Assembly (NCBI GenBank): GCA_944325945.1
Contig: CALVBW010000005.1
Coordinates: 1 to 55,575 of the forward strand
Reading direction: 5' to 3'
DNA: 55,575 nt
DNA from: Candidatus Gastranaerophilales bacterium
GTDB lineage: Bacteria; Cyanobacteriota; Vampirovibrionia; Gastranaerophilales; Gastranaerophilaceae
This document shows positions 41,692 to 52,504 of this stretch, piece after piece (position 1 is the stretch's first letter; each line of letters opens with the position of its first letter). Made by a program: the position numbers and the translations under genes. The notes below the pieces were generated by a model. That model did no database searches. It worked only from the letters and a program-made list of their open reading frames with translations, and had not been told where the DNA came from.

Positions 41692-41748
41692 ATGAGGGCA
41701 AATACGCATTACAACTATATTTCTTACAGGGGGGGGGGCAGATTTTGA
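41692..41748 (+). other. Short ORF with SD running into a G10 tract upstream of a prepilin gene
   Basis: CGGAGG lies nine bases before ATG 41692. The frame reads MRANTHYNYISYRGGGRF and stops. A run of ten G (41729-41738) covers codons 13-16. Removing one G puts this ATG in the frame of the prepilin at 41840, with no stop between. A separate promoter and SD for the prepilin lie downstream, so fused expression is only a possibility. Confidence 0.5.
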
Positions 41749-41839: not shown

Positions 41840-42601
41840 ATGAAAAAACTTGGTTTCACTTTGGCAGAGGTCTTAATTACACTTGGTATTATAGGTATCG
41901 TCGCTGCGATGACTATTCCAACGCTTATCGCAAAGTATCAGGAGCGTCAAACAGTATCACAGTTGACAAAAGTATATTCAACGCTTGCAAGCGCCTACCA
42001 GATGATGCAGGCTGAATATGGTACTGTAGACACCTGGGGTATGAAAGCAACCAATACCGGAGAAGTAGATGAAGACGGTGATACGATTTATGACCATAGC
42101 GCCCAAAATTTAATTTCAAAGCGTTTAAGAAAGTATTTAAGAGTGGCAAAACAATGTGAGAAAGGGAAAATATGTTTTCCCGGTGCTTCTTATACTTTAG
42201 ACGGGATTAAACGTACTGAAGCTAATACATTACCATCGGATAAAACAGACACCCCGGTGGAAGGTAGATTTTTCCTGCAAGACGGGACTTATGTTTCCTT
42301 TGGCTGGTGGGCTGGAACGTACGGTGGAATTTATGTTATTTTACCGCAAGGAAAAGACAGTGTGCTTGGCAAAAATAGATTTTACTTTCATATTGATTCA
42401 AAAGGTTTGAGACCTTATGGAATAAAAGACGAGCCTGAAACATCTTCCCGTTCATTTAGAACATGCGATCCGTCATACGTTGGCGTAGCATCAGGTCAAG
42501 GCTGTACCGCATGGGTGATTTATAATAAGAATTTAGATTATCTGCATTGCAGAGATAAACTTTCCTGGGACGGTGCTCATAGCTGTAAGGATGCAGAATA
42601 A
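41840..42601 (+). CDS. Prepilin-like protein (type IV pilin / pseudopilin N-terminus)
   Basis: 253 residues. A short leader MKKLG precedes the prepilin peptidase site and the hydrophobic helix FTLAEVLITLGIIGIVAAMT, with Glu at mature position 5. The rest is a globular domain (about 40-250) with paired cysteines near the end (CDPSYVGVASGQGCTAWVIY, HCRD, HSCKD). It probably forms a surface or secretion pilus-like fibre. GGAG lies five bases from the ATG. Two further members of this family lie in the window (47922, 54929). Confidence 0.9.
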   Translation: MKKLGFTLAEVLITLGIIGIVAAMTIPTLIAKYQERQTVSQLTKVYSTLASAYQMMQAEYGTVDTWGMKATNTGEVDEDGDTIYDHSAQNLISKRLRKYLRVAKQCEKGKICFPGASYTLDGIKRTEANTLPSDKTDTPVEGRFFLQDGTYVSFGWWAGTYGGIYVILPQGKDSVLGKNRFYFHIDSKGLRPYGIKDEPETSSRSFRTCDPSYVGVASGQGCTAWVIYNKNLDYLHCRDKLSWDGAHSCKDAE

Positions 42602-47047: not shown

Positions 47048-47935
47048 ATGCAGGTATTTTACGAATTAAACCAAAATAACAATTTAGCACTGGCGCTCGG
47101 ATACTTTGACGGAGTACACTTTGGACATCAAAAAGTTATAAAATCCGCAGTGGAATTTGCACACCAAAACAATACAAAATCCGCTGTAATTACATTTAAA
47201 GACCATCCTTGCTGTTATTTCTATGGAGTTTGCCCGAAATATATTCTTTCCAGAAAACAACGTGAAGAAGAAATTGCAAAACTCGGAGTTGATTTTTTGT
47301 ATGAATTGGATTTTGACGAAACCCTTGCAGGATTATCTGCGGAAGAATATTTGAAAAACATACTTATAAAATATTTTTCACCTGTTGCTATATCAACAGG
47401 ATTTAACCACCATTTTGGCGTAAAAAAATCAGGTGATGCTGAATTTTTAAAGAAAAATCAAAGTAAATACAGTTATAAATATTTTGAAATACCTCCACAA
47501 AAAATTCATGATGAAATTATAAGCAGCACAACAATAAGAAATTATCTGCAAAAAGGGGATATTACAAATGCCAACAAAATGTTAGGGAAAAATTTTTCAA
47601 TTATAGGAGAAGTTATTGAAGGACAGAAACTCGGGAGAAAAATCGGTTTTAGAACAGCAAACCTGATTTATCCGACAGAAATCGTGGATATACCTTTTGG
47701 CGTATACCAAGTTGAGACGACATTTGGCAAAGGCATAACAAATTTCGGCATCCGTCCGACCGTAAGCAATACGGAAAAGGCTGTTTTAGAAACTCACATA
47801 TTGGATTTTGACAAAGATATTTACGGTAAAACAATCAGAGTTGAATTTATAAAAATGCTCAGACGAGAACAAAAATTCAACTCCGTTGACGAATTAAAAA
47901 AACAAATCCAGAGTGATATTTCTAAAATTTTATAG
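47048..47935 (+). CDS. ribF: Bifunctional riboflavin kinase / FAD synthetase
   Basis: 295 residues from ATG 47048. The N-terminal FMN adenylyltransferase domain has the nucleotidyltransferase motif LGYFDGVHFGHQKVI and ISSTTIRNYLQKGDI. The C-terminal flavokinase domain has the start GQKLGRKIGFRTANLIYP, then FGVYQVE and TNFGIRPTV. It converts riboflavin to FMN and then FAD. An upstream ATG/TTG extension (to 47030) precedes the conserved region and overlaps the -10, so it is rejected. It overlaps the convergent prepilin gene by 14 bases. Confidence 0.95.
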   Translation: MQVFYELNQNNNLALALGYFDGVHFGHQKVIKSAVEFAHQNNTKSAVITFKDHPCCYFYGVCPKYILSRKQREEEIAKLGVDFLYELDFDETLAGLSAEEYLKNILIKYFSPVAISTGFNHHFGVKKSGDAEFLKKNQSKYSYKYFEIPPQKIHDEIISSTTIRNYLQKGDITNANKMLGKNFSIIGEVIEGQKLGRKIGFRTANLIYPTEIVDIPFGVYQVETTFGKGITNFGIRPTVSNTEKAVLETHILDFDKDIYGKTIRVEFIKMLRREQKFNSVDELKKQIQSDISKIL

Positions 47936-48995
47936 GATAATCTTCAGGAATCTTCCAGCCGTTACACACAATCATTGCAGTACATTCAAGTCCCTTACTA
48001 TATCCATCTACAGTTTCAGAAGCACCTTTTTTACAATTAGTTAAAAGTTTATTACGAGATATCTGTGTACTGTCACAAAATGACTTTTGCGGATAGTCCC
48101 TTGTTCCTGTTACAAAATAACCGTTATTTTCAACAATCAAATTATACGTAAACACATTTTTTCCCATAATAAGTTTATCACCGCGGCTAAGATCTAGCCA
48201 GAAAACACCTCGTCTTCTACTGGTAGTGAGTGTCCTACCGCTATTATACATAATGCCTAAACCATTACTTAAAATATATTTTTTTGAGGCATTAGAATTT
48301 ATATAATCACCTTCCGAATTATACATAGACGTCTGACAGCGTCCTTTTTGTGATACATTTGCACTTAGTATTTCTTCATGCTCACAGACATACACACCTT
48401 TTAAGTAAGGCAAAAAATATTTATCAAAAATACTATTATCCTCATTGGCAATACTCCAGGTTGACGGATTGCCGTTCTCAACAGCTGATAATTTAACCAT
48501 ATTTTGTAAAATACTATATGAAGTTTTCAAATCTGTCTCAATTTTTATTTTCTTAAAGCTTGTAATCAACGTCGGGATTGTCATTGCTGCTACTATTCCG
48601 ATTATGCCGAGGGTTATCAAGACCTCTGCTAAGGTGAAGGCGGCTTTTTTAGAAGATACTAAGTTACTAAGGCAGTACGGCACTAAGAAAGTATTTTTGT
48701 CATTCTGAGCTCTCTGCCGAGCTAAAATTACATAAAGACCCGGTGTGTTGTCGTGGCTCAGCCACCACCCCTCACCCGAATTTCTAACACTCGTCCCTCG
48801 TGTTGAAATTCTTCCCTCTCCCACAAGGGGCGAGGGGAATATTTCGCTAAAACCCTTAATAATTTCATTACCCGATATATTTTTTCCAACTTCCTGTTCG
48901 GCGGCACGCCGGCTGTCACATGATTGAGAGCAGGGGGAATGTGTCTTTGAGACTATAGCGGAGCCGGAGGTGTGAGCGTCGTCGAAAAGACACAT
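47922..48995 (-). CDS. Prepilin-like protein with an unusually long, repeat-derived upstream frame
   Basis: The recognisable protein is SSKKAAFTLAEVLITLGIIG and onward (from about 48655), then a globular domain ending in the family's Cys-containing tail (GLECTAMIVCNGW). No ATG lies just ahead of this core: GTG 48683 (leader MPYCLSNLVSSKKA) has no SD, and the first in-frame ATG is 48995, which would add over 100 residues encoded by palindromic repeats. Upstream, the frame is open to the G9 tract at 49108-49100, where one extra G would join it to an SD-led ATG at 49135. The start is therefore undecided; the gene may be interrupted or phase-variable. Confidence 0.7.
   Translation of the reverse strand: MCLFDDAHTSGSAIVSKTHSPCSQSCDSRRAAEQEVGKNISGNEIIKGFSEIFPSPLVGEGRISTRGTSVRNSGEGWWLSHDNTPGLYVILARQRAQNDKNTFLVPYCLSNLVSSKKAAFTLAEVLITLGIIGIVAAMTIPTLITSFKKIKIETDLKTSYSILQNMVKLSAVENGNPSTWSIANEDNSIFDKYFLPYLKGVYVCEHEEILSANVSQKGRCQTSMYNSEGDYINSNASKKYILSNGLGIMYNSGRTLTTSRRRGVFWLDLSRGDKLIMGKNVFTYNLIVENNGYFVTGTRDYPQKSFCDSTQISRNKLLTNCKKGASETVDGYSKGLECTAMIVCNGWKIPEDYPIKF
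48690..48838. repeat. GC-rich hairpin repeats upstream of the second prepilin core
   Basis: It contains AACACTCGTCCCTCGTGTT (a self-complementary hairpin at about 48787-48805) and CCCTCTCCCACAAGGGGCGAGG (about 48813-48834). A related CCCTCTCCC...GGGGGCGA module occurs at about 44500-44545 inside the 553-bp element. On the minus strand the whole stretch is free of stops in the prepilin frame. Confidence 0.5.
48850..48914 (-). repeat. Direct repeat unit R2 (about 65 bp)
   Basis: On the minus strand it reads in the prepilin frame as AEQEVGKNISGNEIIKGF; it pairs with R1 at 49015-49080, which reads AQQEVGENLTGYEISKGF. The units flank the 20-bp hairpin element. Confidence 0.6.
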
Positions 48996-49005
48996 TCCCC
49001 CTGCT
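48929..49005. repeat. Hairpin element with 20-bp perfect inverted repeats
   Basis: AGCAGGGGGAATGTGTCTTT (48929-48948) and its exact complement (48986-49005) enclose a 37-base spacer. The element is stop-free in the prepilin frame and contains the ATG 48995. Confidence 0.8.
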
Positions 49006-49014
49006 TGACCTTCA

Positions 49015-49080
49015 AAACCCTTGCTAATTTCATACCCAGTTAAATTTTCTCCAACTTCCTGTTGGGCGGGTCCAGCGGCT
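49015..49080 (-). repeat. Direct repeat unit R1 (about 66 bp)
   Basis: Diverged copy of R2 (48850-48914); shared blocks include AACCCTT, AATTTCAT, CCAACTTCCTGTT and CGGCT on the plus strand. Confidence 0.6.
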
Positions 49081-49087
49081 ACGCTGG

Positions 49088-49135
49088 CTAGGAGAGTCGC
49101 CCCCCCCCGATATTTTTAAACTCTTTATTTTCCAT
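49088..49135 (-). other. Short ORF with strong SD running into a G9 tract, upstream of the second prepilin
   Basis: GGAGG lies five bases before ATG 49135, which is 13 bases after the isochorismatase-like stop on the same strand. The frame reads MENKEFKNI, then three Gly codons from nine G (49108-49100), then RLS and stop. With ten G the frame would continue without a stop for 404 codons into the prepilin at 47922. Confidence 0.55.
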
Positions 49136-49148
49136 ATTTTCCTCCTTT

Positions 49149-49688
49149 TTATTTTATGAGTGCCTGTACAGGTTTAAAATCCGGATGTTTAGACGTTCTC
49201 AGCCATTCAAATAAGACAATTTCACAACAGGTAACTTTTGCACCGCACTGTTTTATTAAATCAACACCTGTCTTGAATTCATATTTATTTCTGCTTGCGG
49301 AACAATCTTTTACAAAATAAACTTCATAACCGCGTTCAATCAAATCACAAATTGTTTGATACACACAAATATGTGCCTCAATCCCGAAAATAACAACCTG
49401 CTTTTTACCTGCAGCATTAAGTTTTTCTGTAAATTCGGGAGTTAATAATGCTGAAAAACCTGTTTTTTCAATAAACACAGTATTATCAGCAAGAGAATTT
49501 TTTAAAACTTCTACAGTCTGCCCCAAACCTTTCGGATATTGTTCTGTTACTATAACAGGTATATTCAAAATTTTGGCAGCCTCAGCCAATTTACATGCCG
49601 GTTCTGCCGGTGAATATTTTCCGACGGCATTTACCAGTTTTTCCTGTATATCAATTATTACAACAACGCTATCTTCTATATTTAACAT
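49149..49688 (-). CDS. Isochorismatase-family cysteine hydrolase (YcaC-like)
   Basis: 179 residues. The catalytic triad is Asp in VVVIIDIQEKL, Lys in FIEKTGFSAL and Cys in GIEAHICVYQT, with the cis-peptide-type VIFGIEAH before the Cys. It hydrolyses an amide or related bond of a small substrate; the isochorismate specificity is not implied. ATG 49688 has AAGGA upstream within the end of the preceding gene. It is the last clear gene of the transketolase-ftsE-ftsX-regulator cluster. Confidence 0.9.
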   Translation of the reverse strand: MLNIEDSVVVIIDIQEKLVNAVGKYSPAEPACKLAEAAKILNIPVIVTEQYPKGLGQTVEVLKNSLADNTVFIEKTGFSALLTPEFTEKLNAAGKKQVVIFGIEAHICVYQTICDLIERGYEVYFVKDCSASRNKYEFKTGVDLIKQCGAKVTCCEIVLFEWLRTSKHPDFKPVQALIK

Positions 49689-49692
49689 CAAA

Positions 49693-50922
49693 TTAATCCT
49701 TTACTGACTGTTTAAATTCTTTTATAAAATCTTCTACAATTTTAGCAATCCCTTTTTGGGTAACCGCATTCAAGTTAAGACTGATTTCCTTGTTTTCGGG
49801 AGTATCTAATCCCTGATGAGTTATATATATAACAATTTTAGCAAACCCCGGATATATAATTTTTAATCTGCTTTCCCTGTCTCCGTGTTTCAGCTGAAAA
49901 ACACTCTGCAATTCATCTGTATATTGATCAATTTTAGTATGAAACAATTTTTCTTCATAAGCTTTTTGAAGCCTGAAAAATACCGGTGCTATAACTTTTT
50001 CTAATTTGTTATTATACGCATTTTGAAATAATTTAAAATTCTTTTCATCTTTTTCGTCATCATCAAGCCATTCATCAAGAGTTTTAACATGCTCTTCCAG
50101 AAATACAGACGTTTCATTTGTCTGGCAAGCTTCAGATAACGCAGAGAATGCTTCTTTTTCCAAACGTTCAAAAGTCTTATTTTCAATCCTGCAAACGCCG
50201 GCACGGACAACGAGTTTTGCTCCGAGTATATCCTGAATTTTATTAACAACAGCAAACGCACCGAGTTTATCAACATTAGGAAGAATAATATAAAACTTTC
50301 CGCCTTTCACAACTGATACAATATCATCACATCTGACGGATTTTTTTATAGCTTTTGACAACTTGTCGGCAGAAAAGCGGGTTTTACAAGAGTCATCAAG
50401 CACAAGCACTATAAACATTCCATTTTGCACTCTTTTATCTTTTATAAACTCCGCCAGAAGTTCACGGCTGTATTTGTATTTATAAAATCCTGTTTCATCA
50501 TCAATTACTCCCAGCTGCTTCAAAAGCGTCAGATTTCGTGAAAATCTGACTTTTAAAGCTCTGGATTTAAAACAATTTACTGTTCTTATTAACATTTCAT
50601 AAGATTCTGATTTAACGGAATAATAATCCGAAACTCCAAGATCATAAGCAGCGAGTATAAAATCCTGATCATATTCGTCGACCAGCAGAATGATTTCATA
50701 TTCTGCTGATATAATAGAATTTAAAAATTTCAAAGTTTTTTCTTTGTCACCGTTTTCATGCACAAGAACAATTGATACTGTTGGATTTTCAAGCATTTTT
50801 TTAGCCATCTTATAATCACATACGGCAATGCTGTCGCTTTCCCTCAAAAGTACAAGCTTAGAAAGCACCGATTCAGCGACTTCTTCATTTTCAGTTACCA
50901 GCAATATATTATCGTCAATCAT
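49693..50922 (-). CDS. Pseudo-receiver / degenerate GGDEF regulatory protein next to ftsX
   Basis: 409 residues. Residues 1-115 look like a response-regulator receiver (NILLVTENEEVAESVL, EIILLVDEYDQDFILAAYDL) but the phospho-acceptor strand reads SIVLVHENGD, without the usual Asp. Residues about 140-270 follow a GGDEF layout, with the signature replaced by VKGGKFYIILP (GGKFY), so cyclase activity is not expected. The C-terminal 120 residues are of unknown type. It starts three bases after ftsX. It may be a c-di-GMP or protein-interaction adaptor for cell division, which is inference. Confidence 0.75.
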   Translation of the reverse strand: MIDDNILLVTENEEVAESVLSKLVLLRESDSIAVCDYKMAKKMLENPTVSIVLVHENGDKEKTLKFLNSIISAEYEIILLVDEYDQDFILAAYDLGVSDYYSVKSESYEMLIRTVNCFKSRALKVRFSRNLTLLKQLGVIDDETGFYKYKYSRELLAEFIKDKRVQNGMFIVLVLDDSCKTRFSADKLSKAIKKSVRCDDIVSVVKGGKFYIILPNVDKLGAFAVVNKIQDILGAKLVVRAGVCRIENKTFERLEKEAFSALSEACQTNETSVFLEEHVKTLDEWLDDDEKDEKNFKLFQNAYNNKLEKVIAPVFFRLQKAYEEKLFHTKIDQYTDELQSVFQLKHGDRESRLKIIYPGFAKIVIYITHQGLDTPENKEISLNLNAVTQKGIAKIVEDFIKEFKQSVKD

Positions 50923-50925
50923 TCC

Positions 50926-51834
50926 TTATACCTGTAAATGCTTTTTAATACACAAGAAACTTCCGCCGGCACCGAATAAAATACCCATGGCAAACATAGT
51001 TATCACAACTATATTTTGAGCGAATAAAGGCGACGGTATCATAAAAAACTGATGCATATTATTCAAACCGTTTTGCACAATATTCAAAGGAATCAAAGCG
51101 ATTACAGAACCCATAAATCCGTAAAATGCACCTTGAATAATTAACGGGAATCTTATATACCAGTTGCTGACACCCATAAGACGCATAATCTCAATTTCGT
51201 CTTTTCTGGATTGGATTACTAGCTGAATTGTGTTGTTAATAATAGTAATAGTAAGGATTGCCATAATAATAATTACAACGACAGTAATTGAATTAACAAC
51301 TTTATTCAAAGTTTCAATCTTCTGCACCAGATCCTGAGCGTAACTCATATCTTCAACGATGGCAAGAGATTTTACATCATTAAATACTTTATCAATATTC
51401 TCAGGTTTATCAACTTTAACATGCAAAGTATCCGGAAGCGGATTTTCAATATCAGGAAGCCCCATTTCACGTTTCAAATTAACCCAGGAAACATCACGTG
51501 AAATTACTCTCACAGATTCAACATGCTCAAAATCTTTAATACGTTTTTTGGCAGCATTCGTATCTGTACCATGCTTTAAATACACGGAAATTTCCAGAAC
51601 ATTGCCCAATTCATGGGCAAAAGTTGAAACAGAAAGAGCAGTTCTGAAAAATGCACCGAATATTGTCAGAATTGCTGCCATTGTGGTAATAATAACAAGA
51701 TTTACAATTCCTGTTCGTCTGACATCATTAAATGTTTCCATTGAAATTCTGTATAATATTCTTAATTCACACAACCAATCTTTCGGGATATGTTTTTTAA
51801 CTTTTTTCTTTATTTGCATTTTTTGACTATTCAT
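50926..51834 (-). CDS. ftsX: Cell division ABC transporter permease-like FtsX
   Basis: 302 residues with four membrane helices. After the first helix (IVNLVIITTMAAILTIFGAF) comes an extracytoplasmic domain (about 60-170; VYLKHGTDTNAAKKRI). The FtsX-type RKDEIEIMRLMGVSNWYIRFP segment follows, then the last helices. With FtsE it activates peptidoglycan hydrolases at the septum. It overlaps ftsE by eight bases and has AGGT upstream. Confidence 0.95.
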   Translation of the reverse strand: MNSQKMQIKKKVKKHIPKDWLCELRILYRISMETFNDVRRTGIVNLVIITTMAAILTIFGAFFRTALSVSTFAHELGNVLEISVYLKHGTDTNAAKKRIKDFEHVESVRVISRDVSWVNLKREMGLPDIENPLPDTLHVKVDKPENIDKVFNDVKSLAIVEDMSYAQDLVQKIETLNKVVNSITVVVIIIMAILTITIINNTIQLVIQSRKDEIEIMRLMGVSNWYIRFPLIIQGAFYGFMGSVIALIPLNIVQNGLNNMHQFFMIPSPLFAQNIVVITMFAMGILFGAGGSFLCIKKHLQV

Positions 51835-52504
51835 AAGTACCTGCCTGAATATCTCTAACTATTTCGCCATTATCAAGCGTTATTACACGTTTTCTGAAAT
51901 AATCTACCATAGCATTATCATGGGTAGATACAATAACAGTAATTCCTCTTTGATTAATCTGATCCAAAATCTGCATAATTTCCATAGAATTTTTCGGATC
52001 AAGATTACCCGTAGGTTCATCCGCAATTAAAAGCGGAGGACCGTTTACTATTGCACGCGCAATTCCGACTCTCTGCTGTTCACCGCCGGACAATTCGGAC
52101 GGTTTTGCATGTTTTTTGTCATAAAGCCCGACAATCTTTAAGGCGCCTGAAACACGTGCGTTAATTTCACGGGAACTTATACCTAAAGTTCTGATAACAT
52201 ATGCTACATTATCAAAAACAGTATGGTTTTGCAGCAATTTATAATCCTGAAAAACAATTCCCATGCAGCGTCTTAAATTCGGAATTCTGTCGTTTGAAAG
52301 ATTTGCAACATTAATTCCGCCAATAGTAACAGTACCGCTTGTCGGTTTTTCTTCACTGTATAAAAGCTTCATCAATGTAGATTTACCCGCACCTGATGCG
52401 CCGACGATAAATACAAATTCCCCTGATAAAATATCAAGATTAACGTTTTTCAATGCATAGTGATCGTTATCATATTTTTTTGTAACTGAACGAAATTGTA
52501 TCAT
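51827..52504 (-). CDS. ftsE: Cell division ATP-binding protein FtsE
   Basis: 225 residues. ABC ATPase motifs are complete: Walker A GASGAGKST, Q-loop VFQDYKLL, signature LSGGEQQRVGIARAI, Walker B LLIADEPTGNLD and the switch His in VSTHD. The start shares one base with the stop of the transketolase-like gene (TAATG). It forms FtsEX with the next gene. Confidence 0.96.
   Translation of the reverse strand: MIQFRSVTKKYDNDHYALKNVNLDILSGEFVFIVGASGAGKSTLMKLLYSEEKPTSGTVTIGGINVANLSNDRIPNLRRCMGIVFQDYKLLQNHTVFDNVAYVIRTLGISSREINARVSGALKIVGLYDKKHAKPSELSGGEQQRVGIARAIVNGPPLLIADEPTGNLDPKNSMEIMQILDQINQRGITVIVSTHDNAMVDYFRKRVITLDNGEIVRDIQAGTYE

Follow-up and report, generated by a model that had tools for sequence, protein, structure and literature searches.

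Poly-G leaders before the prepilin genes of a Gastranaerophilales bacterium: a probable phase-variable pilin repertoire

Nearly every long G run in the genome of a Gastranaerophilales bacterium sits at the start of one of its approximately 76 pilin genes and in most cases leaves that gene one base out of frame. The probable explanation of this arrangement is that a large set of prepilins undergoes slipped-strand phase variation, in which the usual tract length, G9, corresponds to the OFF state.

The leaders in the window

The window, that is, the whole 55.6-kb stretch of DNA that was analyzed, has two prepilin genes preceded by G tracts (Table 1). The first leader begins 13 bases beyond the stop codon of an isochorismatase-family gene (49151-49149, minus strand) and is ended by a TAG (49090-49088, minus strand) after 15 codons, MENKEFKNIGGGRLS. 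With G10 instead of G9, ATG 49135 would open a frame of 404 codons that runs through the prepilin to 47922. The original prediction had placed a start codon with a strong SD just behind the isochorismatase stop, nine G at codons 10-12, a stop after 15 residues and a 404-codon frame with ten G; every one of these coordinates was found to be correct. The G10 site at 41729, which it had named as the leader of another prepilin, is likewise situated as described (41729-41738, plus strand, upstream of 41840-42601). Since this other gene has its own ATG immediately before FTLAEV, the leader may not be its sole start. These two tracts are the only G/C runs of at least seven bases in the window.

The leader motif at ATG 49135, GGGGGGGGGCGACTCCTCTA, has 41 copies in the genome at up to three mismatches, compared with none for the reversed control. 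It is also present in Candidatus Gastranaerophilales metagenome bins, and no match to the leader was found among viral contigs.

Directly upstream of the isochorismatase gene lies the gene for a 409-residue protein (49693-50922, minus strand) that has a weak, below-cut-off match to GGDEF. The region next to it (50926-52504) resembles FtsX and FtsE by eye.

Table 1. Features of the two leaders and their genes in the window, and the three leader families
Feature	Position	Strand	Description
Shine-Dalgarno (SD) sequence AGGAGG	49141..49146	-	5 bases upstream of ATG 49135
Leader frame, family A	49088..49135	-	MENKEFKNIGGGRLS, then stop; ATG, 27 bases, G9, then CGACTCTCCTAG
G9 tract, proposed slip site	49100..49108	-	Codons 10-12 (GGG GGG GGG)
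Long prepeptide	48639..49099	-	Dispersed repeat modules (ATLLASVAAG...FLVPYCLSNLVSSKKAA); open in the prepilin frame only
Mature prepilin	47922..48638	-	FTLAEVLITLGIIGIVAAMTIPTLI + ~213 residues; Pfam PF07963 (N_methyl), PF20318 (DUF6613, E=3.5e-10)
Isochorismatase-family gene, upstream neighbor	49149..49691	-	Pfam PF00857, E=1.1e-34
Second leader, family C type	41692..41748	+	ATG, 37 bases to tract, G10, TGA after 18 codons
G10 tract of second leader	41729..41738	+	Within short SD-ATG frame ahead of prepilin
Second FTLAEV prepilin	41840..42601	+	Own ATG immediately before FTLAEV
Family A leader			SD, ATG, 27 bases, G9, CGACTCYYCTAR
Family B leader			C9 on coding strand, preceded by GCGGTTCAGATAGTCG
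Family C leader			ATGGGCGCAAATACGCATCACGACTACTTTTCACTCA, G11, CAGTAGCTTAACCTCC

Association of the tracts with prepilin genes

The genome has a size of 1.63 Mb and is 97.7% complete. A search for the prepilin N terminus gave 84 matches, about 76 of them clearly of the FTLAEV type. There are 65 G/C tracts of at least eight bases in the whole genome, compared with about three expected from the base composition by our own estimate. Fifty-six of the 65 fall 19-577 bases upstream of an FTLAEV-type prepilin, the zone within 600 bases upstream of prepilins being an estimated 3% or so of the genome, and six of the other nine are family A leader motifs close to a contig end. A tract is present at 56 of the 82 prepilins taken forward, most of the tract-free ones having an ordinary short leader, and about 60 prepilin genes of the genome carry such a poly-G leader.

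The two leaders of the window are not a product of chance, because the window has no other G/C runs of this length, the number of tracts in the genome far exceeds expectation and most of these tracts precede prepilins. The original prediction, that the leader design recurs and is not accidental, is thus borne out: there are at least three leader sequence families in this genome, and the design is found in other genomes and in a second genus. The possibility that poly-G is not in excess upstream of prepilins is excluded by the same 56 tracts.

The proposal that all poly-G tracts of the family belong to pilins was ruled out by G077, a genome of another genus of the same family, in which there are 62 tracts and eight prepilins. 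The tracts examined in that genome (L214-L225) lie either between genes or within genes of other kinds, and several are inside membrane-protein-like frames. Poly-G tracts also show a strong strand bias across contigs (37 to 3 in G007, 3 to 34 in G116 and 86 to 16 in G119), which could reflect contig orientation or the replication strand.

Reading frame and prepeptides

The three leader families are unrelated in sequence and have one common design. The peptide between the ATG and the tract is short and divergent, having about 6-12 codons. A shift of +1 base reaches the prepilin in family A and most of family B, and a shift of -1 (or +2) does so in family C. The prediction that the leaders are out of frame by one therefore holds for the size of the offset, but not for a single direction.

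The strongest evidence that translation enters from the leader is the open frame behind the tract. Taken over all loci, the prepilin frame has six stops in 4,663 codons between the tract and FTLAEV, compared with 436 and 467 in the other two frames. Translation of the gene evidently begins at the leader ATG and passes through the tract. Four of the six stops lie behind one tract, C14:7494, which is no such leader.

The prepilins have the class III N-terminal motif (PF07963, above cut-off), and a prepilin peptidase domain, A24_N_bact, is located at C31:88816-89067. The short leader peptide that precedes the cleavage site of a type IV prepilin is not found at many loci, where the prepeptides reach about 200 residues; the shortest loci are ordinary, having about 20-25 residues. 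Also unusual in these genes are the long prepeptides built of dispersed repeats that keep the frame. Those at 48639-49099 (minus strand) and at about 40 other prepilin loci are mosaics of dispersed in-frame repeat modules, including FLVPYCLSNLVSSKKAAFTLAEV, VILNLFQDL, GHPEMLAEGSQ, PTLTLPLKGGRE and NYNSNMMNYKS, some of which occur in both orientations. The last module of the prepeptide at 48639-49099 has 49 matches in the genome. Removal of the prepeptide by cleavage may be the reason why such lengths are tolerated.

A hairpin between CTCCT or CCTCC after the tract and the SD can be seen by eye in families A and C, but it is broken by CTTCT and other variants.

State of the leaders in the genome

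Of 55 loci, about 50 have the prepilin out of frame (OFF) and four have it in frame (ON). Three of the four owe this to G10 (C31:122921, C30:9604 and C14:45512) and the fourth to an additional A in its leader (C8:48162). A script tally of three ON in 54 differs by the choice of another ATG for C31:122921; both figures are far below 1/3. The ON fraction of about 4/55 compares with an expected 1/3 (P about 1e-5 or lower). Being out of frame is thus not a momentary condition but the default, seen at about nine-tenths of the loci.

Among about 120 leaders listed from five genomes, only a handful have an interrupted tract, although the listing was built with up to three mismatches and heavily broken tracts would escape it. 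The bases after the tract vary and are far less well conserved than the purity of the tract. Interrupted tracts that keep their length are found at C30:106816 (G8A), C30:13545 (AGGAG8) and L206 of G134 (G8A). The leader at C2:13456 in G000, which lies upstream of the G9 tract at C2:13196, has the start codon ATA in an otherwise intact family A sequence and is a possible locked-off copy.

Three of the features by which phase variation is recognized are present. A repeat tract of switchable length lies inside the frame, between the start and the body of the gene; a change of one unit flips the outcome, G9 giving 15 codons and G10 the full length; and both states are seen among related loci or genomes.

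Four orthologue pairs that are OFF in both species (C13:10239, C18:60617, C25:87457 and C8:20300) have dN/dS values of 0.13-0.29, indicating that genes reading OFF are under purifying selection. Such values are not expected for genes that are never expressed, and the OFF-reading prepilins are therefore probably expressed, whether in a part of the cells or to some degree.

Tract length in related genomes

All 16 genomes of the genus contain the SD-spacer-G8 pattern; for several of them, and for the second genus, the design was confirmed by direct reading of the sequence. In related genomes, 84 further leaders have tracts of nine (70 leaders), ten (8), seven (4), eight (1) and eleven (1) bases, each species being represented by one genome and many of the genomes being metagenome bins, so that the tract length is a majority call. 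The phase is OFF at 61 loci, ON at 11 and in the third frame at one, and the four G7 leaders include two that are in frame. The distance from the ATG to the tract is 18, 21, 24, 27 or 36 bases, a multiple of three, in 71 of 73 loci, and the frame is open from the tract to the pilin at 70 of 71.

The 20 loci of G134 comprise 13 with G9, five with G10, one with G11 and one with G8A. All five G10 loci are ON, and all ten G9 loci that have a pilin in range are OFF. In G123, a member of the second genus, a tract is situated 29-59 bases before FTLAEV in 16 of the 21 prepilins examined. These tracts have lengths of 8-11, fall into all three frames and are followed by an open frame in 16 of 16 cases. 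Up to five loci are ON there, two of them only by way of an alternative ATG.

The syntenic site behind the isochorismatase gene has G9 in G000, G096 and G154 and G10 in G068 and G116; in several species it is without a prepilin. The orthologue of C23:37427, which has G9 here, has G10 in the bin of a sister species, the flanks being about 94% identical. Tract length is not invariant but varies from 7 to 11 when compared between species, and a single syntenic locus has G9 or G10 depending on the species.

When G000 C30:83656 is compared with L274 (CASGCE), and also at C12:3758, C2:31216 and C14:34474, the upstream flank is orthologous (at most 97.7%) and the downstream prepilin is unmatched. It looks as if cassettes swap at fixed sites.

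Interpretation

The leader would act as a contingency switch, in which an SD, an ATG, a short divergent peptide and a pure G tract are joined to the prepilin through a long prepeptide that can be cleaved off. At the usual tract length the ribosome would meet a stop a few codons past the tract, so that no pilin is made (OFF). Replication slippage by one additional G, or one fewer in family C, would place the prepilin in frame (ON). In this way, a small and changing share of a large store of pilins would be expressed in any one lineage. Direct observations are the structure of the leaders, the association of tracts with prepilins across the genome, the frame preserved from tract to pilin, the coexistence of ON and OFF loci, the differences in tract length between species and the purifying selection on genes that read OFF. 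Slippage of the tract would occur within the population, OFF loci would yield no protein, and the benefit would lie in variation of the surface fibers. Phase variation accounts for the position and purity of the tract, the peak at lengths of 9 and 10, the ON/OFF mixture and the species differences. By itself it leaves the strong preference for OFF and the rarity of the third frame unexplained. Free slippage alone should produce more of the third frame, so that it has to be supplemented by a strong mutational preference for nine G or by selection that favors the OFF state. Hypermutation through loss of MutL is not indicated, this mismatch-repair protein being present in 16/16 genomes of the genus.

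The main alternative is that G9 is fixed by selection and that RNA polymerase slippage, or a ribosomal -1 shift on G GGG GGG, brings a constant share of events into the prepilin frame, giving low steady expression of all these pilins. Programmed slippage of this kind explains the fixed frame better than phase variation does: there is a strong excess of exactly G9 with the ATG frame held constant, the interrupted tracts named above keep their length, the third frame is nearly absent, and a frame-0 stop lies a few codons past the tract at most loci. It is nevertheless rather unlikely. The required shift is -1 in family A and most of B but +1 in C, and both occur among the paralogues of G123, so that the one fixed shift direction at a conserved site of a programmed ribosomal frameshift is not found. 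No common downstream stimulator is present, since what follows the tract is not alike in the different families and genera; several loci of G096 and G154 have lost the frame-0 stop (CTCCA replacing CTCTA); and in-frame G10 and G7 alleles exist in several species. A combination of the two is also conceivable, if doubtful: G9 would be a selected default from which slippage at the level of RNA or ribosome expresses the bank, and a DNA change to G10 or G7 would be a second, heritable step. If so, the result would be a two-layer switch over some 60 pilins at once.

That the leader is an unused relic, the tract being without effect and the prepilin being translated from an internal ATG such as 48995, is very unlikely, even though some prepilins of the genome have a short MKK-type leader and no tract, and the gene at 41840 could start directly at FTLAEV. 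At almost all loci the frame runs uninterrupted back to the tract, over up to about 190 codons, the tract is pure across diverged paralogues, and the frame of the ATG is conserved while the leader sequence is not. There is hardly any likelihood that the true tracts are G10 and the genes intact, with homopolymer miscalls or the assembly consensus producing the apparent G9. The named relatives are indeed metagenome bins that show the majority allele alone, and several contigs of this genome end at such leaders; however, lengths of 7 to 11 are called within one assembly as well as in independent assemblies, and interrupted tracts of equal total length are called too.

If phase variation of the prepilins is real, these gut bacteria of a non-photosynthetic cyanobacterial line have an unusually large phase-variable repertoire of a single family, aimed at the pilus subunits themselves and mostly kept off. 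A bank of this kind would account for the retention of about 76 prepilins in a 1.6-Mb genome. Gene callers probably mis-start dozens of these prepilin genes per genome.

Comparison with known systems

In programmed frameshifting (for example in prfB) and in transcriptional slippage at homopolymers, a short leader frame runs into a slippery run with a stop right after it. The present leaders differ in that the direction of the shift is inconstant and some species have leaders that lack the stop.

Switching by poly-G/C tracts is established in Campylobacter, where tract lengths peak at 9 (53%), followed by 10 (26%), and where each C. jejuni strain has 18-39 phase-variable poly-G/C loci in several kinds of surface-modifying genes (PMC6321876). 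The C. jejuni phasome resembles the present system in having poly-G within the reading frame, a modal length of 9 and then 10, many loci and an early stop in the OFF frame. It differs in that nearly all the loci here are prepilins, with about 60 per genome, nearly all of them OFF.

Neisseria pilC also has a G tract within the reading frame of a pilus gene (PMC5953494), but there it controls one or two pilus-accessory genes, and here the tracts precede dozens of prepilins themselves. The pilE/pilS system of Neisseria is similar in keeping a store of pilin sequences and expressing few of them. Its silent copies recombine into one expression locus (PMC5953494), whereas each copy here has its own SD-ATG and tract. 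Replacement of prepilins in the manner of pilE/pilS may occur as well, judging from the different prepilins found behind the same upstream flank at some sites.

A literature search gave no report on pilin phase variation in Melainabacteria or Gastranaerophilales. Mechanisms of this kind are known. Within the literature searched, the novelty lies in the lineage, the prepilin target, the number of loci and the default-off setting.
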